Source of the DNA: Gossypium raimondii
Taxonomy: Eukaryota; Streptophyta; Magnoliopsida; Malvales; Malvaceae
Direction: 5' to 3'
Assembly: GCF_025698545.1 (NCBI RefSeq)
Contig: NC_068576.1
Coordinates: 50,688,390-50,752,389, forward strand
DNA length: 64,000 nt
This document shows, one piece after another, positions 6,296 through 49,955 of the stretch. How positions within the stretch are numbered: position 1 is the first letter of the stretch; each line of letters begins with the position of its first letter. The notes beneath the pieces were generated by a model, which was not told the DNA's origin, did no database searches, and worked only from the letters and a program-made list of their open reading frames with translations. Position numbers and translations under genes: made by a program.

Positions 6296-6944
6296 CGGGT
6301 TCAAACAAATTTTTATTTATTTTTTTAAAATAAGCCGAAGAAAAAATCGGTTTAAAGGGCAGAGATTATTAAAAGGTTGAAATTGCAATATTATTATTAT
6401 TTTCATAAAAAAATTAAAAAACAAATGTATAAATTTTGGGTATATTTTTCCCTACTTGGTAAGAAAGATGAAGATTGAAGCCCTAATTTGGTAGTGTAAA
6501 AAAGGGAAAAAAAACAGTTAAAAAAGCAGAGTAAAATGGGGACAAATTGAATTAAGACCAAGTCATTAGCGTTCAACATTTGATTCCATGTTGATAAAGA
6601 AACATTGAATTCCATGGAAAGTATACCTGAAGAGTTTCATCTTCGTCAACATTCAACCTTTGAAAACTTGACACTCGAATAATGTATATTTTTGTTCTTT
6701 TTCCTTTTCTGTCATTTTCTAACCCAAAGATTCTTTTTTTATTTGTTTCATTGGTTAAAATAATGGCGTCCACAGAACTTCACATACGTAACTTTCGACC
6801 ACCCACCCAAATTACTGCGCCCACCGCGTTTGTTTTTTTCCGTCAAGCCCACACACCTCGAAACCCATAGTTATTCTGTATTCTTATAATTCATTCATTT
6901 CTTTCTCGATATGTTTTTTATTTAAGAGAATGGATGCTAAAAAA
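6296..6944. other. intergenic
   Basis: No gene supported. Short open frames on both strands between 6403 and 6870 overlap each other, have no recognisable domain and no codon signal; I regard them as chance. Confidence 0.5.
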
Positions 6945-16550: not shown

Positions 16551-16655
16551 CGAATCCACCACGCTCCCCATTTTCCACTCAAATCCATCAGTTTCCCCTT
16601 TTTTTAGTCTCCAACTTCCATTTCTCTTGTCGGTGTTGATATCATAAATACCAAA

Positions 16656-17366
16656 ATGGCATGTTCTGAAGAAACATCAGCCCAGTTAGAACTTATCAGG
16701 CAACATCTCTTTACTGATTTTGCTTCCATGGAAACTCCACCACCCTTCTATCAACTCTCAAATTCCGAGTCATCTCATGTTTATAGCCCGACCCGGTTAA
16801 AACAATCGAGTCTCAGCCAACGTCGTCCTTCTATTAACGTTATGATCCCACCCACAAGTTTTAACATAGGCCCAAACCCGGTTCCAGATTCGGCTGCGGT
16901 GGCGGTTGAATCATACGAGAAAAGTCATTATAGAGGTGTCAGAAGACGACCATGGGGGAAGTTTGCGGCTGAAATTAGAGACCCTAACAAGAAAGGGGCA
17001 AGGGTTTGGCTTGGAACATTTGACACCGCCATAGAAGCGGCAAAAGCATATGATAGAGCTGCCTTTAAGCTACGCGGTAGCAAAGCTATACTGAATTTTC
17101 CTCATGAAGCTGGAAAATCAAATTTCTCAGAGTCAGGGAAAAGGAGGAGAAATGAAGAGGAAGGAGAAGGAGAAAAGAGAGTGAGCCTGTTGGAGTCCAA
17201 AGCAGGGAGAAGAGAGGAGGAGGTAACGGTGGCAGAATGTGGAACGCCGTCGAATCAGACGGGGATCGGGGATAATGAAGATATAAATGAAATATTCGGC
17301 GGCCCACTCTTATCACCCTTATCATCGTTTCCATGGTTCGGGTATTCCAGGCTTGAGGTTATGTAA
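16656..17366 (+). CDS. AP2/ERF transcription factor, group IX-like
   Basis: A 236-residue, intronless nuclear transcription factor of the ERF subfamily, expected to bind GCC-box promoters in ethylene, jasmonate or defence responses. One AP2 domain spans residues about 91-149 ([19 protein letters not shown], then [20 protein letters not shown], ending LNFPHE). The AEIRD and WLGTFDTA segments carry the alanine and aspartate typical of ERF rather than DREB proteins. The N-terminus has the [12 protein letters not shown] motif seen in group IX members (ERF1/ERF2/ERF13/ERF5 kin). A basic, glutamate-rich linker (162-190) may hold the nuclear signal, and an acidic segment (206-213) may activate. Lack of introns is usual in this family. 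Start chosen at the first ATG after the TATA box. A polyadenylation-like AATAAATAAA lies at 17488. The exact orthologue is not assigned. Confidence 0.93.
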
Positions 17367-22679: not shown

Positions 22680-23458
22680 CTTTAATTACTTTAAATTATA
22701 TATATTCTCAGCCCCGTTCAACGGCGGCTAATAATAAGTAAAAAAACTAACGACAAAAATCAAGCATTTGAAGAATCTCGAGAAAAGAAGTTGAGAAAGA
22801 GAGAGAAAGCGCTAGAACAAAACAGATGAGAGATGTGAGAGTTACTATGAAATTAAAAATAAAAAGAAAATTTATGAGTGCAAAAGAAAGAAGGAAAAAC
22901 CTTAACGCGAAGGAAAGCGTAGTAGCGATGGACTCTACCAATAGGAAAACTTTCAAACGCTAGCAACCAAATTTATGATTCTACAAATATGAGAAACAAA
23001 TCCTATTTAACCTCAAATTATCTAAGTAAAATCACAAAATTTAAAGTTTGTGTTAGTTAATATTGAAGCAATCTTCTCTCCAAATTAGGAGAACTTGGTG
23101 ATGTAGAATACTTCTAAGGCAGCCAAGTGGCAAATTAATTTTTTGACATATTTTTAATCCTAACCCTATTTAAAAAAATTTCCATTGCTTCATTCCTTCT
23201 AAAAGATTCATGGTTTCATCTCTTCCAATTTTTTATTAAAATTTATCTTCCAACATTACCTACTATATTTATAATATTTTATTATTTAGTTTTTAAATAA
23301 TAATAATACTTATATAATCAAATATAATATAATTTATTTATGTTGCATCTTTTGAAATTACATCCGATTAAAGATTCTACTAAATCTAAATAAAGATTCA
23401 TATTATGATGTGAAGCAAGAAAGTTGGACTGTCACATTGTTGTTCAAATCAAGTTTAG
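22680..23458. other. promoter side of the lipase gene and intergenic
   Basis: 22680-22960 is probably the 5' leader and promoter of the minus-strand lipase gene. 22960-23458 is AT-rich with no gene; its right end runs into the Helitron helicase relic. Confidence 0.5.
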
Positions 23459-23837
23459 TCATTTGGAGGAAGAACATTTCTATTAGGGGTGATTTTCGTC
23501 AAATTCTTCTAATTGTGCCATGAGGTAGTAGATCTAACCTTGTCTCATAGAACTATTCATATGAGGTTGGGTGGTGGTATAATGATTCTTCATCGGATGA
23601 ATATTCAAATATTAGAATACCATACAGTTCTTTTATTAGAAGAAATTTCAATTCATTTCATGACAACATATCTTAAAAGATCATGCTATACTGTCAACTA
23701 CAAATGAAATTGTCGACGAACTCAATAATTACATGCTTATTAGTATTCTAGGTGAATCTTAAACACATCTAGGTATAGATAGAATTGCACCATCGAATTC
23801 AAATGTTGAACAAGAATCTATTTTTACTACACCAGAA

Positions 23838-24290
23838 CAGGTTTTTAGTGGCGTTTTTTTAGGCCTTTAGCGGCGCTTTTTAACGCCACTAAAGGCATTT
23901 GCGGCGCTTTAAGAAGCGCCACAAAAAATGCCGCTAACGACAACGTCGCTAACTTTTGCGGCGCTTACAAAAAAAACGCCGCTAAAGATCATGTTCTTTA
24001 GTGGCGCTAAGGAAATAAACGCCGCTAAAGATCATGTTCTTTAGCGGCGCTTATGAAAAAACGCCGCTATAGATTATGTTCTTTAGCGGCGCTTAGGAAA
24101 AACGCCGTTAAAGATCATGTTCTTTAGCGGCGCTTAGGAAAAAAACGCCGCTAAAAGTAATGTTCTATAGCGGCGCTTGGTCAAAAAAGCCGCTAATAGT
24201 AGTGTTCTTTAGCGGCGCTTATTTCACAAACGCCACTATTTGATATGACTTTTAGCGACGCTTTTTTAAAAAACGCCACTAATTTTGGAA
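23838..24290. repeat. left subterminal GCGGCG/CGCCGC array
   Basis: About eight cycles of TTTAGCGGCGCTT...AAACGCCGCTAAAG, each a hairpin-like pair of inverted 10-mers a few bases apart, spaced about 60-65 bp. Such arrays bind TNPA-like proteins in En/Spm elements; binding here is inferred. Confidence 0.85.
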
Positions 24291-24541
24291 TTTTTTTAAA
24301 ATAAAATTTTCTGTTTTTTTCAGCCCTCCTGCAACAACAAATCAAAAGCAACCAGATCTAAACTAACCAAAAACAATAAATGTATATAATATTTCAAATT
24401 AAATGACTAAAATAATATTAATTGATATAAATAAAAGTGAATTCATACTTTTCTTTACAAAATGTTAAAAGTTAAAATGATAAAATATTTATGCAATATA
24501 CACTATGATTGGCGGAAGTTATGATCTTTGAAACATCTTCA

Positions 24542-25290
24542 TCATAATCTGAAGTCATTGTTGAAGTTCGTCGTACTTTTTGCTCTACTCGCTTCTCTCG
24601 ATGCCGCATCTTTTGAAGTCGAATGTAGTTCTTCATATTTCTTTTGAACCTCTGCTTCTATCGCTGCTTCTCTCGCTGTAGCCTCTGCTTCCCTCGCTGT
24701 CGCCTCTGCTTCCCTCGCTGTCGCCTCTGCTTTAAGTTGTTGCTGAAGTTCTTCATATTTCCTTTGAACCTCAAATGTGGTCGCTTGCATCTGAGCCATC
24801 TGGTCTTTTAACCTCTGAACTTCAGCTTGAGATTGACTCCCCAAAGCCATGTATTGGTGCGAGCTAGATCCAAAATATTGGGTTGGGCTGATAAAGATCC
24901 TTGAAATCGAACCCACCATACTTTTCAGACCCAAAACTTGATAATAATCCGGTTATCAATGTCTTCAAGATGAACAGAACTATCACTAGAAGCAATCGCT
25001 TCAGACTCAATCTTTTTCCTTTAGTTTTCCTAATAAATAAATCACATAGTTAGGAACATAATATATATTAAAAAAACAAATGCAATATAACAATAGTCGC
25101 ATTACAAGCAATGAATTAAACCATTAGAAAATAAACACTATAAATAACTAAAACAAGTCAAATCGTATTAAGTAAACGTACCATAATTTCACCGACTTGA
25201 GAGTCACAATGAGATCCATCTTTCTTCTTATGTCTAATTTCAAAAAGTTGAAGGCGTCCAACTTTTTGACCGGACGACCGTTCCTACAAT
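24542..25290 (-). pseudogene. Ptta/En/Spm transposase C-terminus relic
   Basis: On the minus strand an exon-like stretch (about 25290-25182) contains RPVKKL and, in a neighbouring frame, HKKKDGSHCDSQVGEIM ending at a GT donor. Downstream, 25030-24950 reads KKIESEAIASSDSSVHLEDI, and 24934-24542 reads SPTQYFGSSSHQYM, QSQAEVQRLKDQMAQMQ and a coiled coil. This order is that of plant Ptta/En/Spm transposase C-termini. A seven-residue unit (EATAREA) is repeated three times at the protein level through a 21-bp minisatellite near 24670-24735. Frame breaks between the parts suggest decay. It belongs to the CACTA element, not to a host gene. Confidence 0.65.
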
Positions 25291-27179
25291 TTTTGTTATT
25301 AAATAAATAATACTTTGAATTGCCATTACAAAATAAATATATTTGAAAAAATATTTTTATTTTAATAGAAAATATAAATAAATATACAAATTTATTTGTA
25401 TGTAAAAGATTATTAATCATTAACATAAAACCAAGTTGCAAATATAAGATCGATAATTAATCATTAATTTGAAGTAAAATTTATAATTGCAACACATAAT
25501 ATCGAAATCGATGATTTATAAATGCTAAACCGATTAAACGATTAGCCCATAATTTATTCAATTACTCAAATATATAAAGTTGTTTAAGAGTTGTATTCAA
25601 TTTTAATAGTTTAAAACAATTGCCTTTGCCAAATAGCAATTCTTAAATTTAAACATCAAATAATGTAATAAGCTGCAAAGTCAAATGCAAATTTAGCTAA
25701 AATGGTAATTAAAACTCCTTCTAAAAATGAAAATAATAATTAAATTATACAACTAAAATATAACAAAATTTTTTTAACAATTTGACTTTTTTATAAGAAA
25801 ACTAAATAGAGAAACATAGGAATAAATACCTTAAATTTCCTCAATTTGAAGCAAATCTCGGAAAAAAAAAAAGAAATACATTAGTCTTGAAAAAGCGAAG
25901 TAATTAAAGCCAAAAACTAAAAAAAGGAGTTTATACTCACAAAGTTAGCTAAACTAAAAAACTAAAAAACCTAAATGTATAAATGATTTAAAGCCATATC
26001 ATATACATTGTTTCTTTTAAATAAGCCTAAATGCATCCATGTGCAAACCGGCACATATAAAAACTATTACATTATTTATCAGCTTATAACCTATCATCAA
26101 AACTGATCAGCTTGGTACCTTAAAAAACACCATGACAGTGAATTAGATGATATTAGAGGTTTAAAATTGAACATATATATGAATATATGTTGAAACCTAA
26201 CCTAACCAAATCATGCGGGAGAAATCACATTTTCTTCCAAATTAAACATAAAAAAAAAGTATGTTAACTGACAATTTGTTTCAGTAATTGACCCATCAAT
26301 AATATAGAATGCAAATGAATTCAAGAAATAATACATTTCCCCTTAAATGGATGCTGGAATAACTCCATAGCCAAGGATATTAAAGAAATCATGATTAAAA
26401 CAATACGAAAAACATAATTTTAATAATGATTTCTCAAAATAAATCATGATTAACTATATTTAATATTGTGTTTTGTATTTAAACGCAGCACATATAAAAA
26501 GCAATTGTACGATTCAATCAATTGCAGTGAATAAATCGGAGGTTGTTCCAAGGTTATTGTTTCAACTCTCCAGTAACAAAGAAACTCACAAAATCCACAA
26601 TTTCCTATCAACACTGCTATACACGAGTTATTTATCAACCACCAATCGAAACAACTTAATGCAGATATAAGAAATCTAAAACGGATTACTACATTGATAC
26701 CACAAATCAAGATTCTCACCTTAGTTTCTAATTTGTAAAAGACTTTGCCGACTGACACCAGAAATCCACAAATCGGGTCGGATAGGGGTTTAAGGAAGGA
26801 GATGAAGAAGCAGCAACAATGCATCAAGGCAACACGGAAAGAAACCCTAAATTTTTTTTCGCTTTTATCTAATGATTCACCATATTTCTGATGTTGTTTA
26901 ATCGAAACCCTAAAACCCCAAATAACTTAGACTGACCTAAAACCCAAAAAATTTAATCGAAAAAGAACAGAAACGGCTTACCTATTCAATCGACAAATCT
27001 CGCAGCTGTGCCCACCTTGTTTCAAGATCGACTCCGACCACCTTTCTTTCCTTTGTATTTTTCGTGAAAAGCTTTCTCCCCTTTCGACACTTAGAAAATT
27101 TCTCTCCTAATTTCTCTGCAATTTCCCTCATGCTGTAATTGGAGGACGACACAGATCTAAGTTAATTTGTCCTCTGAAG

Positions 27180-28072
27180 AAACGGCGCCGTTTAAGTAAA
27201 GTTATGTAAGTTTTGCGGCGCTTTGTGGAAAAACGCCGCTACTGATTCCCTAACACGTAACGACGTCGTATATTGCAATATTTGTGGCGTTTTTGACTAA
27301 AACGCCGGTAAAGGATACCTTTTGCGGCGTTTTTATATAGAAACGCCGCTAAAACTCTCATTTTTTTTGTCTTACATTTAAATAATTAATTACCAATTTA
27401 TTTAACAAATAAATAATTACTTACTTATTTATTTGTTTATTTATTTATACCAATATTATTTTGGTCCTATATATACAGATTAAATAATTAATAACTATAT
27501 ATATATATATATATATATCCATATATATCAAAAATATATCAAATGGCCGTTAATTTGGGTTAAATGTTTTAAATATATAACTATTATTAGTTATATTGTA
27601 TCATTTAACAAGTCTCAAATTATAAATTAACCTTGTAATCTTCATATTAACCAATCAATTTATGTAGCTACATGCATAAAGTGATCATCTACCTATTATA
27701 CTAAAAACTTATCTTAATATTAAATTTATTCTGGATCTATATTTTACAAATATATAAGAACATATATATTTACCTCCAAAGTTAATCAAACTAATATTAA
27801 CCTCTTAAGAAACCCTAAACCCCGGCCAAACCCCTAAAACCTCTCTAACCCTTAAATCTCCCTAAACCCTAATTAACCCTATCCCTAACCCCTAAATTCA
27901 CGTCTGTAACCCCTAAAGCATAACCCAACCCCTAAACCCTAAGCCATAAATACCAAACCTTAAATTCATATATACCGGCCCGTACTCCTTAAAATACCAT
28001 GCATCGACCAAAATATTCCCTAAATATTCTTTAATAATAAAAAATATAGTGAAAATCTATTAAACAACAAGT

Positions 28073-28114
<42 letters not shown>

Positions 28115-29055
28115 AAAATGTTGTATAAAGTTGAAATAAGGTAGCAATATTATCTTTATGACAAATTTTCGTATGAAGCTTCAAATGTCCTTTTAACAAA
28201 TGGATGAAATTTGTTATAATAAACTTGGTACAACAAATTTTGTCTCTTTATATAAAAACAATTTTTTTATAAAATTTGGTATAGAAAATGCATTTTTTCC
28301 GATAATAAATTAAGTAAAGGATGAGGACACGGGTTAAATGGCCTTTAAAGAAACGGCGCCGTTTAAATTAATTTTAAGTCACATTTGCGGCGTTTTTGCG
28401 TAAAAACGCCGCTATTGCATGCCCTTTTGCGGCGCTAGGGGAAAAAACGCCACTAAATTTTCAATTACACAAAGAAATGGTGACGTTTTCACAAAATTGT
28501 AGACATATTTGCGGCGTTTTCCCGAAAAACGCCAGTAATAGAGTACGTCATTCAACTGAAACGACGCCGTTCTGACAGAGTTTCAAGAATATTAGTGGTG
28601 CTTCCCTATAAAACGCCACAATAGAAACTGATTCTCTAACACGTAACGACGTCGTATATTGCAATATTTGTGGCGTTTTTGACTAAAACGCCGGTAAAGG
28701 CTACCTTTTATGGCGTTTTTATATAGAAACGCCGCTAAATTTCTCTTCTTTTTTTTGTGTCTTACATTTAAATAATTAATTACCTATTTATTTAACAAAT
28801 ACATAATTACCTACTTATTTATTTGTTTATTTATTTATACCAAGATTATTTTGGTCCTATATATACAAATTAAATAATTAATAACTATATATATATATAT
28901 ATATATATCCATATATATCAAAAATATCAAATGGCCGTTAATTTGGGTTAAATGTTTTAAATAAACAACTATTATTAGTTAATTGTATCATTTAACAATC
29001 TTCAAATTATAAATTAACATGCATCCATAAAATGATCATCTAAGTACCACACACC

Positions 29056-29101
<46 letters not shown>

Positions 29102-29880
29102 ATTAATTATAATATAAACTATACTAAACTTCAATATATTAAATTTATTGATCTGGATTTATTTTACAAATATATAAGAACATATATATATTTACCGTAA
29201 AATTAATCAATCTAATATTAACCTCTTAAGAAACCCTATCATGACCGTCTAAACCCCGACCAAACCCAAACAATTCCCTAAATTAATATTCTTTAATAAT
29301 CAAAAATATAGTGAAAATCAATTAAACAACAAGTTATATATAGTTAAAAATGTTGTACAAAGTTGAAATATGCTAGCAATATTATCTTTATGACAAAAAT
29401 TTTCGTATGGATCTAAATATAAGTTTTATCATTTTGAACTTAAGTATCGATATTTTTGCATCGGTATTGCTATAGCCATATATATAAAAAAATCAAATGG
29501 TTAAGGTTAAATGTTTTAAATATACAAGATAATTAATTGTATCATTTAACAAGTCTCAAATTATAAATTAACCAATCAATCGACATGCATAAAGTGATCA
29601 TGATCTACCTATTATAATATTCAATAAATTAAATTTATTCGGATCTATTTTACAAATATATAAGAACATATATATTTACCATAAAAAATAATCAAAAACT
29701 AATATTAATCTAAATTAAACCCTAACATGACTGTGAAACCCTAAATCTCAAACCCTAAATTAACCTTAAATCCCAAACCTTGAATCTATACCCGTACTCC
29801 TTAAAATCATCCCATACAAAAATTCCTTAAATCTTTAATATATACAATCATAAAATATAGTCAAAATCGATTATACAATA
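27180..29880. repeat. internal segmental duplications of the CACTA element
   Basis: A block at about 27240-28150 recurs at about 28626-29420 (offset about 1,386 bp; shared CTAACACGTAACGACGTCG and TTGTGGCGTTTTTGACTAAA) and partly at about 29470-29880 (shared CAAATATATAAGAACATATA and CTAATATTAA). Each copy has an AT microsatellite and a CCCTAAA-rich stretch. AAACGGCGCCGTTT palindromes start at 27180 and 28351. The blocks carry extra GCGGCG/CGCCGC motifs in the middle of the element. Confidence 0.75.
29057..29099. repeat. AT microsatellite
   Basis: An uninterrupted (TA)n run of about 20 units inside the CACTA interior. Similar runs occur at about 27497, 28075 and 28885 in the other internal copies. 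Confidence 0.85.
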
Positions 29881-30252
29881 ATTAATTGTTAAAATATATT
29901 TTGTATAAATTGGTGTTTTATATTAATTCCTTTGATTTATTTAGTCGAACAAGACTACCAAAATTTATTACTCTTATAAAAGTTAATTCTATTTTTAATT
30001 TATTCTTTACAATACAAAATTTAAGTTTTATTATATTTTATTTTATTCATAATTTAATATATTTTCTCTCGTAAAGTAGTTTAAATCAATTGTGATTGAA
30101 AATTAGTAATAAATAGTTAGTCATTATATATATATCGACTTCTCTTTAATAAAAACTTTTGTATTAATCAATATTATTTGTTAATTATAATTTAAATGTA
30201 AATTGTACCACTATATAATAAATAGAACAAAATATTAATTATTTTTGTTACT

Positions 30253-30655
30253 ATTAGCGGCGCTTCGGCAAAAACGCCGCTAAAGGTAAATGCATTAGCG
30301 GCGCTTAGATACAAACGCCGCTAAAGGCCAGAGAATTAGTGGCGCTCAGATAAAAACGCCGCTAAATATCCGAGCATTAGCGGTGCTTAGATAAAAACGC
30401 CGCTAAAGGCCAGAGAATTAGCGGCGCTCAGATAAAAACGCCGCTAAATATCCGAGCATTAGCGGCGCTTAGGTAAAAACGCCGCTAAAGGTTTAAAAAT
30501 CGCAAAAACGACGCAGTTGGTCTTAGGTTTTTTGCGGCGCTTTATATAAAACGCCGCTAATTCCTATTTTTAGCGGCGCTTCTGGGAAATCGCCGCTAAT
30601 GCTCGATTTTTTGTGGCGCTTTTGTTCTAAACGCCGCTAAAAGTGCCGCTAAAAG
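30253..30655. repeat. right subterminal GCGGCG/CGCCGC array
   Basis: About seven cycles of TTAGCGGCGCTTAG...AAACGCCGCTAAA with short spacers. A roughly 120-bp unit (AAAGGCCAGAGAATTAG..., ATATCCGAGCATTAG...) is itself tandemly repeated at about 30320-30480. Confidence 0.85.
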
Positions 30656-30712
30656 CCTAATCTGGTGTAGTGTTTATACCCTAAACTTTTAAACTCATTA
30701 CCAAATCATGAG

Positions 30713-31648
30713 ATTCAGTCTATTGAAGAGTTGAACCAAAGTTTTGGTGTTTGTAACGGTCAGTTTGATAATGATCGAGTGACATTGCTTCTTTGGTCCG
30801 AGCCGGAGAATCCCTTATAAATGATGCAAAATGGATCTTATTCTATCGTTGATCAGAGAAATCTCTATAAAAAATGCGAATCGGAGTTTGAAGAAGGGGA
30901 AGGAGAAGGAGTACTCGACCCGCAACAGATAGAGGAGGATTTATTCAATCGCATAGTTTGAGCTCCTAGGATATGGCGCCCTTGAGGCTTTCTATTTGAT
31001 TGTATCGAAAGGCCAAATGAATTGGGATTTCTCTATTGGGCCGGGTCATTTCAGGGCAAGCGGATTATTTATGATGAAAAGGATGAGCTTCAAGAGAATG
31101 ATAGATCTCCCAAAGAACAATGCTTTTTTCGAATAAGCCAATTCATTTGGGATCCTGCGGATCCACTCTTTTTCCTATTCAAAGATCAACCCTTTGTCTT
31201 TGTGTTTTCACACTGAGAATTCTTTGCAGATGAAGAGATGTCAAAGGGGCTTCTTACTTCCCAAACAGATCCTCCTACATCTGTATATAAACGCTGTTTT
31301 ATCAAGAATACGTAAGAAAAACACTTCGAATTATTGATTCATCGCCAAAGATGGCTTAGAACCAATAGTTCATTATCTAATGGGTTTTTCCGTTCTAATA
31401 CTCCATCCGAGAGTTATAAGTATTTATCAAATCTATTCCTATCTAACGGAAGGCTATTGGATCAAATGACAAAGACATTGTTAAGAAAAAGATGGCTTTT
31501 CTAGGATGAAATGAAAATTGGATTCATGTAAGAGGAGAAAGGTTTCCCATTACTTAGCCAGAAAGATATGTGGTAATGAAATAGGGATTAAGTGGAACGG
31601 AATTGACTGGGTGGTAGAGTTGTGGAAACACCTATTTCTTCCATATTT
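30713..31648 (+). pseudogene. ycf2: plastid ycf2-derived nuclear insert (NUPT)
   Basis: The plus strand reads as the C-terminal part of chloroplast Ycf2: [95 protein letters not shown] and DEMKIGFM followed by a stop at about 31533, then plastid-like downstream sequence. Several in-frame stops (for example after NRIV, after FVFSH and within KNT*EKHFELL) and frame changes show it is not expressed as Ycf2. Relative to the plastid protein as I remember it, a stretch of about 14 residues is missing between QEND and RS. Ends are estimated from where helicase similarity stops and resumes. Confidence 0.85.
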
Positions 31649-31829
31649 TGGACCGGTTACAAGTTAAATGGATTGATGGTTACATGTTAATTGAAGTTGA
31701 GAGAAGTAACATTGGTGAAGAGTTTTTCATCCCACGGGTGAAAATTTCTCTAAGGGATACAAAATGGCCTTTCACTTTTTATCGCAGACAGTTCTCCATA
31801 AAAGTATATTTTGGCATGACAAATTAAGA

Positions 31830-34396
31830 AGATTAAAGTAAAATTTTATTATTGTATTGATTTATTAGTTTAGAATTTTTAGAGAGAAATTTTATCATCT
31901 TAAAAATTAGAATATAATTTTATCATTTTATTTACTTATAATTACAAAATTTGAAAGAGAATAAAATTAAAATTTACCATTTGACTGTCTGCGATCTTGA
32001 CCCATCTCTGAATGCTACATTTTTTTTTGAATTTTTTGAAAACTGAAATTCCAAACACAAATCATAGTTTTAATGATTCTTTTGGAAAACTTTAGAGTTT
32101 TTTTTTGCTAGAATTACAGTCCACGTGATATTTGGAGCAATAGATGAGTGAATATCTATTTATTAGCCAAAAACAACAAAGAAAAGACATTAAACAAATT
32201 TGTACAAAAACATTAAGATGAACACTCATTTGACCTATTTTTATTGTCCTTTTCTTTTTCTCTTATTATCCTCACAAATAAATCTATAGTCCCTACAAGT
32301 TTCTTTTTTTTTTTTTTTTTGATAAAAAGTCCCTACAATTAAACATTCATCTCCATTGTTTGCATGTCTTGGCTCCTACCCTTTTTTTTTATATCTAGTG
32401 TTTTGTATTTCAATAAAATGGATTAGATAGAAACCTGTAAATGATTATCATATTCGTATTTTTCTACAACTTAGTATGTATACCACAATTTTAAATACAA
32501 ATAGGAAACATAAATATATTTTGAAATGACAATTACATTAGTAGTTTCTACCAGAATAAATCCATACAAATACTGAATCTAAATTGAATAATTATTTAAA
32601 CTAGAAACAACCCACGTATTTAACTCGTCATGTTAATCTAATTATAATCATATAATAGAAACTCTTAATCTCCTACTCCATTGGAGCTTAGCTTATCCCC
32701 AATGGCTAGTGATGGTAATAAAGAAACCACCAAAAAAAGGAAGTGGTGCTCCACTTCACTGATCTGTGTGGACGACTGCGAGTTTAGAACCAAGAAAGGA
32801 AGCCCACTACTTATAAATTAGTGCAAAGTCACCCTCTTCCACAATGTGCAAAGGCATGTCTGGGTTTACTAAAAAGATTGGTCCTCCGGGACCTCAACTG
32901 TAATGTGTTGGCTTTAATATATTCCAATCAACTCCACCAACCTTGTGCTGGGATTGCAATATTGGAAGCAAAGTGAGACCACCAACAAATTTGGTGCCTT
33001 AGATGCCATTTCCCATTCAATCATATCCCCCCGGGTTTCTTAAACCATCTTTTTCTTCCACTTAGAACCTCTTCCACAACAACAAAAAAACCACCCTTTC
33101 TTTTTTGTTAAGTGTAAATATAAATAATTAATACGTGTAATAAAATTTTAACCTTTTCTTTTTCCATTTATTACATTGCTTTTGTCTCGTGACTGTGTTG
33201 TCCAAACGAAAACAATCAATAATAATGATGATGATGATTAATCCTGGATGAGGGCAAATGTAATTATACCTCTAGTCTTTACATTTCATTAATCCTGGGA
33301 TTTCCGTGTAGGTAGGTATCCGCTAAAAGAAAGAAAGAAAGTGAAAACAAAGTTACATTTGGGCAAGCACGCATGTACCTAATTGGAGCATGCTTGCTTC
33401 AGCTCATGTAATCATCTAACCTTATCAAAACAAAAATGCCTTGAACAAGGCTTGCACGCTAAACATCCTAAGCACGCTTCCAACCTCAGCAACCTCTGTT
33501 TTTGGATTTCTTAATGTTCTAAGATACAAACATCACACTTCTCAAAAACTAAAATGAATAGAAAGGAGCCATCCAGGCCAGCCTGAGGAGTTTTAAAGGT
33601 AAGATATAATGATCAATATCGTACAGAAAATAACTGAATAAAATGGAAAACTTTGAGCTAGATTATTCTGCAGATTATAGAAAGCTGTTTGCTATTAGCA
33701 ATACATGCGCACATATATATACGTTCATTACCAAACTGACGCAAAACATAAACTGAAAAAGTTGAGCGAAACCTATCAAATACTTAACTAAAAAATATAT
33801 GTATATAAATCCAAATAATGAAAAAACACTACAAATTATATGTGTATATATAAGATTTATCTCTTCTACAGCATTATTCCCTACCCCTACCCCTTTTCCA
33901 TTTTTTGTTTTTCCAGGAAGAAATAGAAAATGAGGTGTTAAGAGGGAAAGGAAAATGACCTTCCTGTGTATCAAGACTCTGCTACACTTCATTATCTTCA
34001 GTGTAATGATCTCAACTAACATGCCAAAAAACAGTTGACAAAAAGAAGCGATAATATCACAAGAATCATAAATAAAACAAACACACAACTGAGATATTGC
34101 CATCTTAAGGGTTGGGTACAATTTCCTGCCGAAAACCTAGCAAACTGTACTTAATCTGGTATCCCTCTAGAAGCTTTTGTTCTTTTCCTAGAACTATGAA
34201 CGAAATGGGAAAAGAATGGCATAATACAGAGAATTTTCATAGCTTGATAACTCTTCATTGAAGTCTCAAACACACAAGAGCATATTACAACAGTGAGTGA
34301 GTGAGAGAGAGGAATCCATATTAAAAAACTAAAGGTACCTATTTATATTTCTGTTTCTCTAGATAACAGCAAGACAAATTACAAGAGAAATTTGTT
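31830..34396. other. intergenic and 3' side of the WRAP73 gene
   Basis: 31830-33600 is AT-rich with no gene. About 33650-34396 is probably the 3' untranslated region and downstream flank of the minus-strand WD40 gene; a 148-codon open frame there (33675-34121, -) has no domain and is not called. Confidence 0.5.
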
Positions 34397-37300
34397 TCAC
34401 TCATCTGAGCTATAGTCACTGGATTCTGGCAGTAGAGGCACAGCTGCACAGCAGAATGACTCCTTGTCTTTGAGAAGAAGACAGCTCCCATCTGAATTCC
34501 ATTTCAAATCAGTTATAGAAAACTGTGGTAGCGGATTACTTACACAGTACGCACCGGAAGGGGTCCACATATACAAATGAGAGCTGCCAGTGCAAAGAAC
34601 AAGACGAGTGCTTATCGGATCCCAAGCTGCTGCACGAATAGGATCCTTTTGCACCAAGATGGCAGCCAACTCCAAATGGCGAATGTCCCAAATCCAAAGT
34701 GCAGTTGGCATGCTATCATTGCGAGTACAAATATATTGGCTATCATTGCTCCATGAAAGAAGACCTAGAATAAAATTAAATTTTGTTGGTAACAGCATTG
34801 AAGGGAGGAAAATCAAAGTTAATTTGGTCAACTATTTCTGATTAGTTTATAGAGTAGCTTAATGCAGCCTTAAACTTGAGTGTACATAGCATGATTAATC
34901 CCTAGAAAAATATTTTGAAACCAAATCATTATATCCAATAAGATTACATCTTCTGAAATCCTAGTGTGGCACTGGCCACGCTAGTTGGTAATTGTCATAT
35001 TTAAGTGGCGGTATCCTACATTTATTAAGTATTGGGCCTCATCCTCTTCAAAAAAAAAAAAAGCTTGACCTCTCAACATAATGCCAATTGGTTTTAGGTT
35101 AGATGCTTAACATGATATCAAAGTCCAGGAGTGTTAAGTTTTCTTGCCTAACCGCATGTGAGGTTGTCTATGCATGGACCCTTGCTAAGTACACAAGGGG
35201 AAGTGTTAAGTTGTCACAACCCCAATTGACTCGTGATGCATAATCTAGAAGTTTTCTTTTTGGGTGCCCACAGGTCCTCAAGGTTTTACCACCCTCAAAT
35301 GCGCCTCCACAAACTTGAACCCATATCCTCACACACAAAGAAGTGCACACTATAGCACAAATACCAATTGATCTAGTGGTATCCATTCTACACTTTTTAT
35401 GTCACTGCCCGGCCTGCCAGGCCATCTGTCATAATCAGAAATTGTCCTCTTTAGGTATTCATAGGTCCCTCAAAGTTTTGACAACCTTAGATGCGCCACC
35501 ACATTTTTGAACCCACAATCTCACACACAAAGGAGTGCACTCTATAGAATGAATACCAATGATCTACTAGATGAATAGGACAATTCTAAAATATGACACA
35601 CGACCTGCAAATCGAGTAGTGACATGGGTGGTACTATCCCACATTATTAAAAGTATTAGGTTTCCTATGGTCCTATATTAAGTTTGGCCTCGCCAGTCAT
35701 TAGAAATTGGTTTTAAATTGGATGCCTTAATAGTCACCAAGGGCATTCATCAAGCAGAAGGGCTGACACGTCTAGTGGTAGGGGTAACGTGGAAAGGAGA
35801 GAGATTATTTCCATATTAAACAATATTTCTCGAATAAAATAAAATGTACTGCAAGATCATTATGCTAATATTAGAAATAGAGCATACTAAATTCGTTGTA
35901 CTCATATTTTGTGTCACTTATTATATGGTATGAAAAACATAAAATGTTTAGTAAATCTACATCAATTTGGTAAGACTTACCAATTCCTTGTTTAGGGTTA
36001 GGTTTGTCTGCAGGAGGCTTTTGGAAAGGAAAAGTAATGGGTACTTCCATAACCTCATATCTAACTTTGAAGTGTCCGCCTGGGGCATCTGTTAGTGGGG
36101 CATATGAACCATATTAAATAACTGAAGGGCTGCAATTCACGTATTGAAAATGACTGGAAAGGCAGGCATGCAAAAGCATTTAAGCTTAATAAACTGTATA
36201 CAAAAGAACAGAGCACTCAGGTCCTAAACAGTCGAGCACAATTTCATATCAAGGTCATGTATCAAGCAGTACATCAAATTAATGAAAAGTCAATAATAAG
36301 AGATATAGAATCTCACTATCCTTACCAGAGCCTCCCATAAAGTCATCGTCCAAACATAATTCAGACATATCAAGTTGCAACGGCTCATCTACCTCCTGCC
36401 AATATCAAATACAAAGTTAATAGATGCTTCTCACAGAATGAATCATCATAACAATGAAAACAAATTACCTTGAAAACGGCAGCACAACAAGGAGCACGAA
36501 CGGTTGATAGGTGCATAAACTCAGCAAAAGTTTTCCAAGTAAGGTGGTTTAGAACTCGTAGCATCTGATCATAACTACCCACAGCAAGAAACTGGCCACA
36601 GGGAGACCATGAAACACTTTTTACTCCCAGTCCACTTTCATATGCTTGATACTTAAAGAGACACCTTCCATCTGGAGAATATATTAGAACCTGTCTCAAA
36701 TTAAATAAGGAACCATGAACACTTTAATATTTCCAACTATATCAGCTCCAAGAGAAAGTATTGGCACACAAAAAGAAATGCATGCTTATACATCACTAAA
36801 ACCATAAACATAACTATGTGCTAATAGATGGTTAAGTAGAAATGCAACCATCAGGGCCATGTAAATTCTCATTTGGAGATATCTTACATAAGATACCATT
36901 TTCACCACAAATTTCTTGTTCTTTTCTTTTTTTAAATCAATAAAGAAGAGAAGAAACGGTTCTTCCCAATATACACATCGTATATCATCTAGGAACCAGA
37001 AAGGGGCAATTTGGCGACTGAAAGGAAAACAAAGTTCACATACTTTGTATTCAAGAGGTGAATCCCCGATCACTATTGCACTGTCATCCGGTGACCACTG
37101 AATATCAGTCATATCCAATGTGTCAACGGCGAAAACACCCATTATCTCCCAAGAGTGACAGGACAACAAATTTATATAGTCCTTACAATCACGCCTTGTG
37201 CAGATAGCAGCAAACTTTCCATCTTTAGTAAATGAAACTCCTTTGGAACCATGCTTTGGCCATTGTACATGAACGCAAGCTGTGTTCACTAAGGACCAAA

Positions 37301-38217
37301 CTGTTAATCGCAGCTGAAACTCCGAGGTGGTCAGTATGTGACGGCTATCTGGGCTCCATCTTGCATAAGCAATACCAGCAGGACCTTCATCTATTTTGCA
37401 TGTCCATTCGGGTTGGGTGAGTGACCATGCCTGTATCATGGGTCTTTTATAGAGACCACAAAGAATGTACTCAGAATCAAGTGCCCATTCAATATAGCTT
37501 ATCTTGTCCAAGCAAGAAAACAACTGCACAACCTGCAGCAATTTGAGTAAATTTACCATTTAGAAATACAGGAAATGTAAGCTGTGAACCTCAAAAATGA
37601 CCTTTGCATGAAAATAAATGCTTAAGCAAATTCGTAAATCAAAGAAACGAGACAAAACATAGAAGATTAATTTGCAAGTTTTTTTCATTGAGAGGAGTGT
37701 TTCAATGCTAAAAGATAAATTTTGCTCAAGTAGTTTGTGATTTCACAACAGACACAATGCCCAAAGAAACAGAACAAACATCAAATCTATTAGCTTGGTC
37801 TAAAGAGTGAAGCAATACAAAGCAAATAGGAAGCATTAGTAATCGAATCTGACTAAAATGTTGTCTAAATAAGCACAAGAAGATCTAATCAGAAACTAAA
37901 ATGAGGTGAATCTACATACCTAAAATTTGAATCAAGCATACAATTCATTCAAAAAAACCAAATCAAAACGCACCCAAAAGAAAAAGAGAAAAGCATTTTA
38001 TCATATCAGTCGTCTCCTTCCTCGCATTTCATCAGCAAACAAAGAAAGCAAATGAATTGGGAATTAGAAGAAAAAGAAGGAAATATTGAAAATATTTTAC
38101 CTTGAAGGAGAGTGTATCCCGAATCATAAGACGGTAATCGACAGCAACCGCAATGTAACGAGCATTCGGTGAAAAACAGCAAGGACCCGTTTGTTTATAA
38201 GCTTCAGTGAACTCCAT
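34397..38217 (-). CDS. WRAP73: WD40 protein, WRAP73 (WDR8)-like
   Basis: WD-repeat scaffold related to animal WRAP73/WDR8, which acts in centrosome and spindle-pole complexes with SSX2IP; in plants a microtubule-related role is inferred only. Exons (-): 38217-38101, 37532-37044, 36690-36469, 36395-36326, 36088-35981, 34764-34397. Junctions are GT-AG with agreeing phases and the product is 457 residues, about the usual family length. It starts MEFTEAYKQTGPCCFSPNAR, continues through WD-like blades (DKISYIEWALDSEYILCGLY, YARWSPDSRHILTT, IQWSPDDSAIVIGDSP, VSWSPCGQFLAVGSYDQMLR) and ends LLPESSDYSSDE. The blade ending VIGDSPLEYK has G where I recall W in relatives. The last intron (34765-35980) holds two SINE-like copies. 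Confidence 0.93.
35225..35392 (-). mobile_element. tRNA-derived SINE-like copy 1
   Basis: On the minus strand from 35392 the sequence reads CCACTAGATCAATTGGTATT (A-box-like) and about 54 bases later GGGTTCAAGTTTG (B-box-like), followed by a body with GAGGCGCATTTGAGG. It lies in the last intron of the WRAP73 gene, in the gene's own orientation. Confidence 0.55.
35440..35563 (-). mobile_element. tRNA-derived SINE-like copy 2
   Basis: It is diverged from copy 1 but collinear: ATTGGTATTCATTC, GAGTGCACTCC, GTGTGAGATTGTGGGTTCAA, then GTGGTGGCGCATCTAAGG. It sits about 50 bases from copy 1, in the same orientation, in the same intron. Confidence 0.5.
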
Positions 38218-38619
38218 TTTTACCAAAAGAATCCTAGAATTTTTTCCAGATTTAGATTGAATAAAATTCAATGAAGGCGAAATCCCTATTTCCTTGGTTT
38301 TTCCATCGCAAAAAACAATAATAATAATAATAATAAGTGGAAAATTCAGTTGAGAGTGGGGAGAGTGGTTTAAAATTTGAAGGAGATACGACTCCCTTTT
38401 CACTTTTTCTTTCAGCAAAACGAGCACGACAAAAATCGCTTTGACTGAATAAAATAGTATAATGGGCTTGTTACGTTTTTATCAGGTCAGACCCATTTAT
38501 TTCCGCATGAAGGAATATATTCACTAAATCCGCTTATCAATGGGCCATGATCTGGGATTGGGTCAACCACTTTTGTTTCCTTTCGGAGACTACGATGGAT
38601 GTGCAAGAGGGATAGCTTA

Positions 38620-43556: not shown

Positions 43557-43736
43557 ATGTCAACTCTCAAGCGTGCTCGGGAATCATCTTCAGCTGTCTT
43601 ACACTGTAATCTTCCTACAAACAATAAAACCCAGACACCAGAAGCTATAGATTTCTCAACTCAAGATGCTTTCCACCAAGAAAATCAAGGCATCCCCTCA
43701 AAGTCCTACCCAGCTTGTATCATCGTCATCAGCTGA
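43557..43736 (+). other. overlapping upstream open frame of F-box gene 1
   Basis: An ATG at 43557 opens 59 codons (MSTLKRARESSSAVLHC...) ending at 43736, in a different frame from the F-box coding region, whose ATG is at 43666. If both are on the mRNA, scanning ribosomes meet this ATG first. It could be a regulatory upstream frame, a transcript that begins later, or the trace of an indel at the N-terminus. Confidence 0.4.
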
Positions 43737-44886
43737 TATGATAGCCAGCAACGATGACATCTTAACTCTAATCCTTCATCGCCTGCCCCTAAAATCCCTC
43801 CTCAAATTCAAGACAGTGTCTAAACACTGGCTTTGTCTCATCACCCATCCCACCTTTCGTCCCCACCACAATTCTAGAGCCATTTCCGGCCTTTTTGTGT
43901 GTCGTCTTTCAGATATTACCAATCCAAAATACGACTTCCTCAATCTAACTCCCCATTCCTCTCGTGCCCCCTTTAAGTCCCTCAATTTTATTGACGACCC
44001 ATCTGGGATCAAAATCTTGCAATCTTGTAATGGCTTGTTGCTTTGTTGTAGCTTTCGTTCTAATCGTCTCGGCACACCTTATTACACTTACAATCCCACT
44101 ACAAAGCATTACACAGTACTCCCACCACCACGCCACAGTTCTTCCGGGTACTACAGTTTTGGTGTCAGTTTAGCCTTTGATCCTTCAAAGTCACCTCATT
44201 ACAAAGTCATTTGCATTAGGAATTACGACCCCGAGTTGCTAGATCATTACCAGGTAGAGATTTACTCGTCGAAAACCGGTCCCTGGAGGCCTTCAGGTCG
44301 TCCATTCGTAGCACCAAGTAATGTGCAATTCGAAAACGGTGTTTTCTGGAACGGTGCTATTCACTGGGTCAGTGACTGGGGAGATTCGCTATGTTTCGAC
44401 GTTGAAGAAGAGCAAATGAGGGATATCCCAATGCCCTCCAGCGATGGTGACGTAAGGTTGTACCGGTATTTCGGAGAATCCGGAGACCATTTGCATCTCG
44501 TTGAAGTTTATGGTTCAGACAATTTACAGTTTGATGTGTATGAGATGGAGAGAGACCGTTCTGGGTGGTTTGTGAAGTACCAAGTTGATCTAAATCCAGT
44601 TGCAGCAGCATTTCCTGAGATGGTTAGGGGCTATGCCGATCCAATAGACTTCCATTTTTACGCGTTTTCAATACTCTGTGTTGTTCATGAAGAAACCGAT
44701 GAGGGCTCATTCATGGTGCTGCATTTACCTAACAAAGCCATAAGGTATAATTTCAAGGACAACAGTTTCAGAAAGTTGCATGATTTTGCTCCACTTCGTT
44801 CTAGAGTTGGGGTTGGGGGAGATAGTTCATTAGAGTTTGAATATTTTGATGCTTATCAATTCATTGAGAGCTTTGCTTGTGTGTGA
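43666..44886 (+). CDS. F-box protein (At5g07610-like), copy 1
   Basis: 406 residues, intronless. Probable substrate-recruiting subunit of an SCF ubiquitin ligase. An F-box spans about residues 28-67 (NDDILTLILHRLPLKSLLKF, then VSKHWLCLITHPTF), which would bind a SKP1/ASK protein. The rest is an F-box-associated beta-rich domain with ILQSCNGLLLCCS, YTYNPTTKHYTVLPPP and FGVSLAFDPSKSPHYKVICI blocks typical of plant FBA proteins. It is followed 837 bp downstream by a second, similar gene in the same direction. Target unknown. The N-terminus is uncertain because of the overlapping upstream frame. Confidence 0.9.
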   Translation: MLSTKKIKASPQSPTQLVSSSSADMIASNDDILTLILHRLPLKSLLKFKTVSKHWLCLITHPTFRPHHNSRAISGLFVCRLSDITNPKYDFLNLTPHSSRAPFKSLNFIDDPSGIKILQSCNGLLLCCSFRSNRLGTPYYTYNPTTKHYTVLPPPRHSSSGYYSFGVSLAFDPSKSPHYKVICIRNYDPELLDHYQVEIYSSKTGPWRPSGRPFVAPSNVQFENGVFWNGAIHWVSDWGDSLCFDVEEEQMRDIPMPSSDGDVRLYRYFGESGDHLHLVEVYGSDNLQFDVYEMERDRSGWFVKYQVDLNPVAAAFPEMVRGYADPIDFHFYAFSILCVVHEETDEGSFMVLHLPNKAIRYNFKDNSFRKLHDFAPLRSRVGVGGDSSLEFEYFDAYQFIESFACV

Positions 44887-45654: not shown

Positions 45655-45723
45655 GGACGTATGGAATAGGCTTATGAGAATTTCAGGGTCTAGCACAACA
45701 TACTGTGTACAAAAATAATCTCC

Positions 45724-46935
45724 ATGGAAAAACTAGAGTTTTCGAACTCATACACGGAATCAACCGAGTTGATAGGCTACAACGATGATATTCTCATTAA
45801 CGTTCTCATTCGTCTCCCAGGAAAATCTCTCATGAGATTCAGAAACGTATCGAAACACTGGCTCTCTCTGATTTCTAGCCCCTACTTCTCTCGTTGTCTT
45901 AATCAAATCCCGATATTTCCCTCTGCCATCTTCTTGCGGATGCAGCCATCTTTAAACAAGCTCAAGTACCACTTCCTTTCACTAGATAGAAACCCGGTTC
46001 GGGAGCCATCAGTTCGATCTTTCACTTTTGTTGATGACCCTGCAGGCATTAGGATTCTGCAATCCTGCAATGGCTTGTTATTGTGCTGTAGCAACAACCG
46101 GTTAGGAGAATACAACCGGAACTATTACATCTACAATCCTACCACACACCAATACACTACCCTTCCCAAGCCAGATAACAGAACTCAAAGTCCAAACACT
46201 ATTTTCGGTGTTATTTTAGCTTTTGACCCCTTGAAATCGGCACATTACAAAGTCATTTTTGTTCGAAGTTCAGAGACATCTCCTCATCTTTATCAGCTGG
46301 AGATATACTCATCTGAAACTCATCAATGGAGTTTCTCCAGTGAAATTTCCAAGGTTAATAATTTCAGTCAAGGGGTCTATTGTTGTGGTGGTATTCATTG
46401 GAGGAACAACTATGGGCCTTTCCTACGCTTTGATGTTCATCAAGAGAGATTTCAAGAGATCCCAATGCCTAAAATTCCAGATGATTGGGACCAACAGACC
46501 AAGTGCAGATACTTTGGGGAATGCGGAGGTCGCCTGCATCTTATCTTAACAAGTTGCAAGCATAGTACCAGGCAGTTTGATGTTTACGAGATGAAAAATG
46601 ACTTCTCCGGATGGTTTGTGAAGTGTCGAGTCGACCTTAATGCGCTGATTTCAGCAAATCCGAAGATGACCCAAAGCAACTGTCACGCATCAGATCATTG
46701 GGATTATCATGCATTTACAGTACTAGCCATTGTTGTTGGTGAAGGAAGCGGACAAGGGTCGTCATTGCCTTTCATGGTGTTGCATGTACCCGGAAAGGTC
46801 ATTACCTACAGTTTCAAAGACAAAACTTTCACATTGCTCCATGATTTTGCTCCTGATTGCACAGACATTGAAGGTTGTACAACCTTCGAATATGACGATG
46901 CTTATCCCTATATTACAACTTTAGCCATTGTTTGA
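45724..46935 (+). CDS. F-box protein (At5g07610-like), copy 2
   Basis: 403 residues, intronless, tandem paralogue of the gene ending at 44886. The F-box is at about 18-57 (YNDDILINVLIRLPGKSLMR, then VSKHWLSLISSPYF), followed by the FBA-type region: FVDDPAGIRILQSCNGLLLC, YYIYNPTTHQYTTLPKP, ILAFDPLKSAHYKVIFVRSS and a C-terminal PFMVLHVPGKVITYSFKDK. Copy 1 has the same blocks in the same order, so they arose by duplication, but they differ at many positions and so are not recent. Expected role: SCF adaptor; substrate unknown. Confidence 0.92.
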   Translation: MEKLEFSNSYTESTELIGYNDDILINVLIRLPGKSLMRFRNVSKHWLSLISSPYFSRCLNQIPIFPSAIFLRMQPSLNKLKYHFLSLDRNPVREPSVRSFTFVDDPAGIRILQSCNGLLLCCSNNRLGEYNRNYYIYNPTTHQYTTLPKPDNRTQSPNTIFGVILAFDPLKSAHYKVIFVRSSETSPHLYQLEIYSSETHQWSFSSEISKVNNFSQGVYCCGGIHWRNNYGPFLRFDVHQERFQEIPMPKIPDDWDQQTKCRYFGECGGRLHLILTSCKHSTRQFDVYEMKNDFSGWFVKCRVDLNALISANPKMTQSNCHASDHWDYHAFTVLAIVVGEGSGQGSSLPFMVLHVPGKVITYSFKDKTFTLLHDFAPDCTDIEGCTTFEYDDAYPYITTLAIV

Positions 46936-48085: not shown

Positions 48086-49955
48086 CTACTTCCCGATTTC
48101 TTCGAGCATCATGAGCACTCGTCTGCTATTCGGTCTAAGAGTAGGAGAAGGAGAACAACAAGTCATGGCAAGCTGAAAGAATTTAAGAATGGATTCTTCA
48201 GTAACCGGATTTCCCTTATCATTGTTGTTCCTCAGAAGTAGGTCTGGATGATACAGATCGCTGATTCTATGATCAAGAACTGCATTCCGCATGAAGTTTG
48301 GCAGATAAAAATCCTCATCAGGTGTTGGCTTTTCATTTATCGGTTCTTTCCCCGAAAGTAGTTCAAGAAAGATCACCCCAAGACTGTATATATCAGTCTC
48401 CGGACTTGCATCCCTCATTTTGATGAGCTCAGGAGCTTTATAGCCCTCAGCTGCTGAAGCTTCAAGTATTTCTTGACCAGAGGTAGGATTCAAGAGTAGG
48501 TGTATGCCGAAATCTGAGAGAGAGGGCAGATAATTTCGATCCAAAAGTACGTTCTTAGACTTAAGGTTTCCATGGACTATTGGCTTTTGCAATCCTGTAT
48601 GTAGATGATCTAACCCTCTAGCCATACCAATGGAAATCTTGTAAACCACTGCCCATCTATGAGATTCCACATTCCCATCTGCCCAAATAAACAGTCCATT
48701 CAAAATCTTAAAACATTCAAACTCATCCAACATAAACATTATCCTAACTTGTCTGTTAAACATTATCAGATAAGATTTGCAAGAGAAAAACATAGCCATA
48801 AAACTCAAAACAGTATTTCCCATTGAAATGTAGTTATGGAAAAGTGAAGGGAAAAGGACAGAGGTAGGTGCCGACAATCAAATTATGCAGGTAATAGCGT
48901 AATTTCGACATACAATATATCTACACACAAAACAAAAGTTAACCCACAATGAATACATGTTGGACCTTTTCTTTACAGAAAAGAAACACCCCCCCCCCCA
49001 TATCTAACAATTGGAAATGAAACTGAATAACAAGAACTTAAGGACAAAATTTAACAATTTTCATTCTTTTAGTGTCATTTTGAGATTTGGAAAATGTCAA
49101 AAACGTACAAGAAAAACATAAATATCAATTTAATTAAGCCAACAAGACTGGTTAGCTACTTTTTTCAATTTTTCCTTCAGGGTTTTCTGTTTGGGGGAAT
49201 CGAAAGGAGAATCTATCTTCCTTTGTCTTCCTTTCTTCCTAGAAAATGAGTAAATTTGACAATAAAAAAAAAGAGAGAGAATCTTGAGCTTCAAAAGATT
49301 TGAAGCTCAGTTCAGCTAAGCCAATAAACAGAATTTAACATTCAATCAATGTTTTTTATTATTATTATTATTATCATCATCATCATCATCATCTACATTT
49401 TCAGCATTTTCTTCCAAACCAAACACAAAATAAGACGATCAGGAAAAAGAAAAAAAGGAAGAGATTACCTCTGATTAACTGAGCCAAATTGCCATGCCAA
49501 TAAAAAGGTTGAACAAGAAGCTTCTCTCCTCTAGGCCCAGCATAAAATCCCAAAAGAGGCACCAAATTGGGATGTCTAATGCACCCCAACATCTGAACCA
49601 CATCACCAAACTCTTCACCTCTCAAGGCACACACAGGCCTCAAGAACCGAAGCAATCTCACCACGTTACTCCTCTGCAACAAGGCCTTATACACGGTCCC
49701 ATAGTTGGATTTGCCAATCACTTCACCGGGAGCATCGAGAATGTCACATATGGTGAGGTCTTCTCCACCGTTGAAAGTGATCACGTCCTCCATTTCTGAC
49801 CCATCATCTTCTTCTTCATCATGCTTCTGCCCTTTGCTTTCAATGTCATCCAGCTGATCATTTGTCGCTGCCCTCTTTTGGTAAAAGAAGAAGACAAGTA
49901 CGAGAATGAAGAAGAAAGCTATTGAAGATAATGAAAGGAGGAGTTTTAACATCAT
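48086..49955 (-). CDS. TMKL1-like membrane pseudokinase, no LRR ectodomain
   Basis: Two exons (-): 49955-49469 and 48678-48086, GT-AG, 359 residues. The N-terminus MMLKLLLSLSSIAFFFILVL is a hydrophobic anchor (about 3-25), followed by an acidic linker (35-58) and a protein-kinase-like domain (about 75-355). It is most like the kinase part of LRR receptor kinase subfamily III / TMKL1. Motifs are degenerate: glycine loop reduced to GKSNYG (81-86), beta-3 VVRLLRF (98-104) has no VAVK-type lysine, and the HRD site is HGN (198-200), while the DFG motif (218-220) is kept. Catalysis is therefore unlikely; a scaffold or allosteric role is inferred. TMKL1 itself has leucine-rich repeats before the membrane span; none are present here and none were seen upstream to 50.6 kb. 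Either ATG of the initial MM pair could be used. Confidence 0.85.

Follow-up and report, generated by a model that had tools for sequence, protein, structure and literature searches.

Plastid ycf2 DNA embedded in a decayed Helitron-type helicase of Gossypium raimondii

What lies at the locus

The 64,000-nucleotide stretch of the Gossypium raimondii genome considered here (contig NC_068576.1, positions 50,688,390 to 50,752,389; the window, below) contains 898 bp of plastid DNA, at 30757-31654, that interrupts a fragment of a Helitron-type helicase. The host fragment amounts to about 0.7 kb, carries stop codons and small internal deletions, and is also split by a CACTA-type transposon nested 84 bp from the plastid piece. 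The best reading of the insert is an ordinary tract of nuclear plastid DNA (NUPT) within a helicase relic. The features that carry this reading are listed below, each with its basis.

23383..23824, + strand: helicase remnant, left piece, spanning the GDFRQ region through ...EQESI; contains stops and internal deletions (PIF1 match, tblastn, DNA similarity)
30676..30760, + strand: helicase remnant, middle piece, LYPKLLNSLPNHEI...LNQSFGVCNG (Helraiser and paralog alignments)
30757..31654, + strand: NUPT, comprising the plastid ycf2 C-terminus, a spacer and what we take to be the first ycf15 codons (8XKU_D match, genome copies, boundary alignments)
31655..31821, + strand: helicase remnant, right piece, RLQVKWIDGYMLIEVERSNIGEEFFIPR...YFGMT (tblastn, Helraiser alignment of the joined pieces)

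A preliminary description of this DNA had placed plastid sequence inside a Helitron helicase gene over the interval 23459-31829. Its core stands, namely ycf2 DNA with helicase on both sides in collinear order, but its left boundary, the length of the insert and the number of helicase residues said to be lost do not. The interval also needs amending: the helicase starts before 23459, at about 23383 as read from the frame, and ends with FGMT at 31821, and the CACTA element at 23825-30672 went unmentioned. Likewise, the insert does lie within a helicase, but what survives of this transposon gene is a remnant with stops, small deletions and the CACTA insertion.

Identity and limits of the plastid insert

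The translation of 30758-31528, with X at internal stops, matches residues 2023-2294 of the Ycf2 chain 8XKU_D, presumably from Arabidopsis, at E 2.2e-138, and this is its sole PDB match. The Ycf2 identity is drawn from that chain and from the DNA copies described next, since searches of the ycf2 piece against Pfam and NCBIfam gave unrelated families only (E 0.23 and 0.13). The 22-residue piece that is the ycf15 candidate matched no NCBIfam model. When window 30700-31830 was searched as DNA against the 750.8-Mb assembly of the plant's own genome (281 contigs; best 40 of 69 candidates scored), at least 43 rows matched, of which 1 is the window itself and at least 42 are further ones. Five other rows span query positions 58-61 to 955, which is to say about 30757-31654 of the window.

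These copies fix both ends. To the left of 30757, six copies (L002-L007) continue with a common sequence unlike that of the window; to the right of 31654, five of the six again continue with a common sequence, the sixth, L006, being N there. The right end is further supported by a plastid contig from a Frankia assembly, which aligns with the right-hand part of the insert. In the alignment with the copies, plastid homology begins only at (C)GGTCAG, so the plastid part is 898 bp and not the 935 bp or so first estimated; its similarity ends at 31654 and, as the preliminary description expected, does not pass 31700. The embedding is nuclear: the locus sits on a 57.7-Mb contig, C12, with helicase sequence following beyond both 30757 and 31654.

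The helicase host and the empty paralogs

Taken singly, the host pieces give modest matches. The left piece matches Pfam PIF1 at 23473-23550 with E 2.5e-4 and 21.2 bits, under the curated cut-off of 25.9 bits, and tblastn with a paralog from C7 covers 23673-23867 at E 7e-11; the same paralog covers 31678-31821, in the right piece, at E 5e-10. Among Pfam families, the middle piece alone reaches Pif1_2B_dom at E 0.078 only, and the right piece alone reaches none. Besides the sub-threshold PIF1 match, two results weigh against the helicase assignment: the left piece alone, searched against the PDB, finds Helraiser only fifth, at E 1.6 and behind unrelated chains, and the joined peptide matches no Pfam family. 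Against the PDB, the joined flanks align with the RepHel helicase of Helraiser (7LCC) across 132 residues at E 6.3e-7, the sole match at E<=10; it is as joined pieces that they present a Helitron-type Pif1-like helicase domain, and the earlier expectation that the flanks match helicases is borne out. Helraiser, however, is a RepHel, whereas the host in the window is known from a broken helicase-domain fragment alone. Helitrons typically also have a Rep (HUH) domain, a 5′ TC end and a 3′ CTRR end with a hairpin. A paralog query reaching past FGMT (31821) met no further helicase sequence after it in the window.

Helicase reading does not stop at NHEI (30712), as had been thought. It continues for about 45 bp to LNQSFGVCNG (30760), and the join shifts right by that much. 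That the reading resumes in order beyond the insert is confirmed: in the Helraiser alignment RLQV follows CNG, one residue being skipped at the plastid join, and the order agrees with that of four aligned paralogous remnants. The joined peptide has 9 match rows in the genome (30 of 30 candidates scored), 3 of them in the window and 6 at five other places. Four paralogous remnants, aligned as DNA, run without a break across both insertion points, that of the CACTA element and that of the plastid piece, and contain neither insert; C7:21748725 and C12:55728396, both among the weaker matches and the latter covering the right-hand part only, were left out of this alignment. Paralogs at 47-51% amino-acid identity thus stood in for the orthologous empty site. 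No near duplicate of the host flanks turned up, their DNA relatives being one 74-bp match at 81% identity (2 of 2 candidates scored) and, for the left flank, four other genome places at 70-73%, among them C7:21748725, which is missing from the joined-peptide matches.

The loss of target sequence at the join is small, 11 nt by the paralog DNA alignment and one residue by the Helraiser alignment, or about 3-11 nt, in place of the 20 or so helicase residues previously proposed. The residues missing near NHEI are, in the paralog DNA alignment, separate small deletions in the helicase. The last 3-4 bases of the middle helicase piece, (C)GGT, are also compatible with plastid sequence, and base 31654 is possibly common to the plastid end and the right helicase piece, so that the possible overlap is 3-4 bp at the left join and 0-1 base at the right. 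An overlap of at least 4 bp has a chance of about 0.016 per join, and one of at least 3 bp about 0.05 (same formula, by hand).

Decay, age and the state of the spacer

The insert has decayed as a pseudogene would. Its ycf2 frame carries six internal stops, and a 45-bp deletion near 31109, lying between short GAT repeats, is absent from the seven copies compared. Of 886 sites compared with the majority of those copies, 35 are different; C>T or G>A changes make up 20 of these, and 23 are private to the window while 12 are common to other copies. From the 23 private substitutions, and taking 2.6-7e-9 changes per site and year for nuclear DNA, we infer a rough age of about 4-10 million years; all 35 differences would correspond, as roughly, to about 6-16 million years.

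An outgroup for the plastid sequence was sought among viral contigs (no relative), plasmids (no match) and genome contigs (1 relative among 24 pattern matches). That relative, L029, is NZ_CADDZT010000058.1, an 18.9-kb contig of the Candidatus Frankia meridionalis assembly that carries plant plastid ycf2, 96% identical across query residues 189-271, and is presumably host-plant contamination. In the ycf2-ycf15 spacer, the window, L004, L007 and partly L008 have the plastid state of the Frankia assembly; L002, L003 and L005 do not. Of 17 right-hand sites at which the window departs from the majority state of L002, L003, L005 and L006, the outgroup shares the window state at 3 and has the other state at 14; the 3 sites of agreement all fall in the spacer stretch. 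On this comparison, the spacer state kept in the insert is probably the ancestral plastid state, and the insert would accordingly seem to be older than a change in the plastid; a proviso is that two of the comparison copies, L002 and L003, are unplaced contigs rich in indels. Transfers of plastid DNA in this lineage could be placed in relative time with the help of this spacer state. A bolder version, in which the insert would be a fossil of an older plastid genome, transferred before a change in the plastid of the cotton lineage, and may have disabled a Helitron helicase that was then intact, seems to us evenly poised between right and wrong.

L002 (C159) and L003 (C135) are short, have about 0.5% substitutions against the plastid-copy consensus together with many single-base deletions, and look like assemblies of uncorrected reads.

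Origin of the insert

Very probably, a linear plastid fragment was captured by end joining at a break inside the Helitron helicase, with the loss of few target bases, and the resulting NUPT then decayed. The sequence of events would begin with a chromosome break within helicase sequence; a linear fragment running from the end of ycf2 to the start of ycf15 would then be taken in by end joining that used scant homology or none, at the cost of only a few target bases; and the captured piece would decay afterwards. The CACTA transposon entered the same remnant in an event of its own, either earlier or later. End-joining capture is the best supported route because the target loss is small, there is no clear target duplication, and the left join has a possible overlap of 3-4 bp. 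The earlier suggestion of organelle DNA used as filler in break repair therefore fits what is seen, namely a contiguous fragment, a loss of 3-11 nt, a possible left overlap and empty paralogs. Several observations weigh against this account, or at least against its finer points. The left overlap presumes a conserved Gly codon in the helicase, whereas the best-aligned paralog reads CNC; the C of CGGT is present in only 3 of 6 plastid-derived copies; and the estimate of target loss depends on the alignment, being 3 nt in one and 11 nt in the other. Moreover, with paralogs standing in for the orthologous empty site, we infer the break repair, the precise bases of the target and such microhomology as the joins may have.

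Among the alternatives, an assembly chimera, in which plastid reads were misjoined to a nuclear contig, deserves mention because plastid-like reads were evidently in the assembly, as the short indel-rich contigs C135 and C159 attest at about 0.5% from the copy consensus. The window copy, however, has 23 substitutions of its own among 886 sites, lacks 45 bp that the 7 compared copies retain and carries six stops in the ycf2 frame; this argues against a misjoin, which we reject as scarcely credible. Helitrons do capture host fragments, and the element might have taken up plastid-derived DNA while transposing; yet what the plastid piece interrupts is a conserved stretch of the helicase, not the space between the gene and an element end, and no second composite copy was seen in the genome (best 40 of 69, 2 of 2 and 30 of 30 candidates scored in the respective searches). 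Gene capture of this kind is rejected as highly improbable. Transfer of the plastid piece through mitochondrial DNA before it reached the nucleus is just as improbable: chloroplast insertions in cotton mitochondrial genomes are reported in PMC6852956, but here both immediate flanks are helicase, and no mitochondrial sequence was recognised, no mitochondrial-genome search having been made.

Capture of plastid DNA by end joining is a familiar process. According to PMC7037861, organellar filler DNA at breaks is a general route, with joins that are blunt or have 1-7 bp of microhomology, and in some species NUPTs are co-localised with transposable elements. The present case shares with that filler DNA a plastid fragment in nuclear DNA, a small target loss and decay, and is of the same kind, with the distinction that recognisable helicase lies on both flanks. 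Legible sequence on either side allows the point of insertion to be located within a few bases. For G. raimondii, the accessible text of PMC6852956 gives 2072 kb of NUPT DNA, or 0.27% of 761.57 Mb, and in that text this survey of Gossypium NUPTs does not describe the locus. PMC12572781, a statistical survey of distances between NUPTs and transposons in 30 angiosperms, with Helitrons among the classes, mentions NUPTs that entered coding regions; Gossypium has 0 occurrences in its text. The locus goes without mention in the parts of these three articles that were available, which is no proof of its being unpublished. It is thus a further case of a known process, and general ideas on the origin of such insertions are unchanged; its value is as an old and unusually legible worked example, in which plastid DNA probably mended a broken chromosome.

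The nested CACTA element and other features of the window

Two further features adjoin the helicase pieces.

23825..30672, no strand assigned: 6848-bp DNA transposon of CACTA type; subterminal repeats of GCGGCG type, termini (T/C)ACTACACCAGA (ends in genome copies)
31824..31982, no strand assigned: short dispersed AT-rich repeat, directly next to the truncated helicase (genome match rows)

The CACTA element has termini in common with other copies. Its 5′ end in the window reads TACTACACCAGA; copy L042 runs to element base 6848, its end reading CACTACACCAGA, and L043 to 6847; the 5′ terminus of L045 is similar, and the match of L044 begins at element base 5. A pattern search found no terminus in L040, L041 or L044. 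TTT flanks the element at 23822-23824 and 30673-30675, a possible but weak target duplication, the left copy lying within a T run. Its part at 24300-27190 has at least 43 rows in the genome (best 40 of 1341 candidates scored), which form two blocks, one up to about query position 991 and the other from about 987, with about 5 bases of overlap (window 25286-25290). Among the matches listed, the window row is the only one that crosses the block junction, and the same holds for the copies that were fetched. On C8 the two blocks stand about 2.7 kb apart, which makes the window copy look as if it derives from a longer element by internal deletion. The two longest open frames of the element, 24542-24952 and 26450-26926, both on the - strand, matched no Pfam family above cut-off. 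In their longest blocks the fetched relatives agree at about 93-95%, and individual blocks reach 98%; the plastid piece stands 2.6-4% from its copy consensus, a figure not closely comparable with the CACTA identities for ordering the two insertions.

The AT-rich repeat at 31824-31982 has at least 40 further rows in the genome, at 69-88% identity (best 40 of 68 candidates scored). Elsewhere in the window, the open frame at 16608-17363 on the + strand encodes an AP2 domain (E 5e-17), and open frames resembling exons of a WD-repeat protein lie on the - strand at 34400-38478, among them the frame 36789-37559, which matched beta-propeller models below their cut-offs. Two adjoining F-box/beta-propeller genes, perhaps a tandem pair, are found at 43651-44883 and 45694-46932 (+), and a protein kinase domain (E 4e-20) is encoded at 48089-48877 (-).

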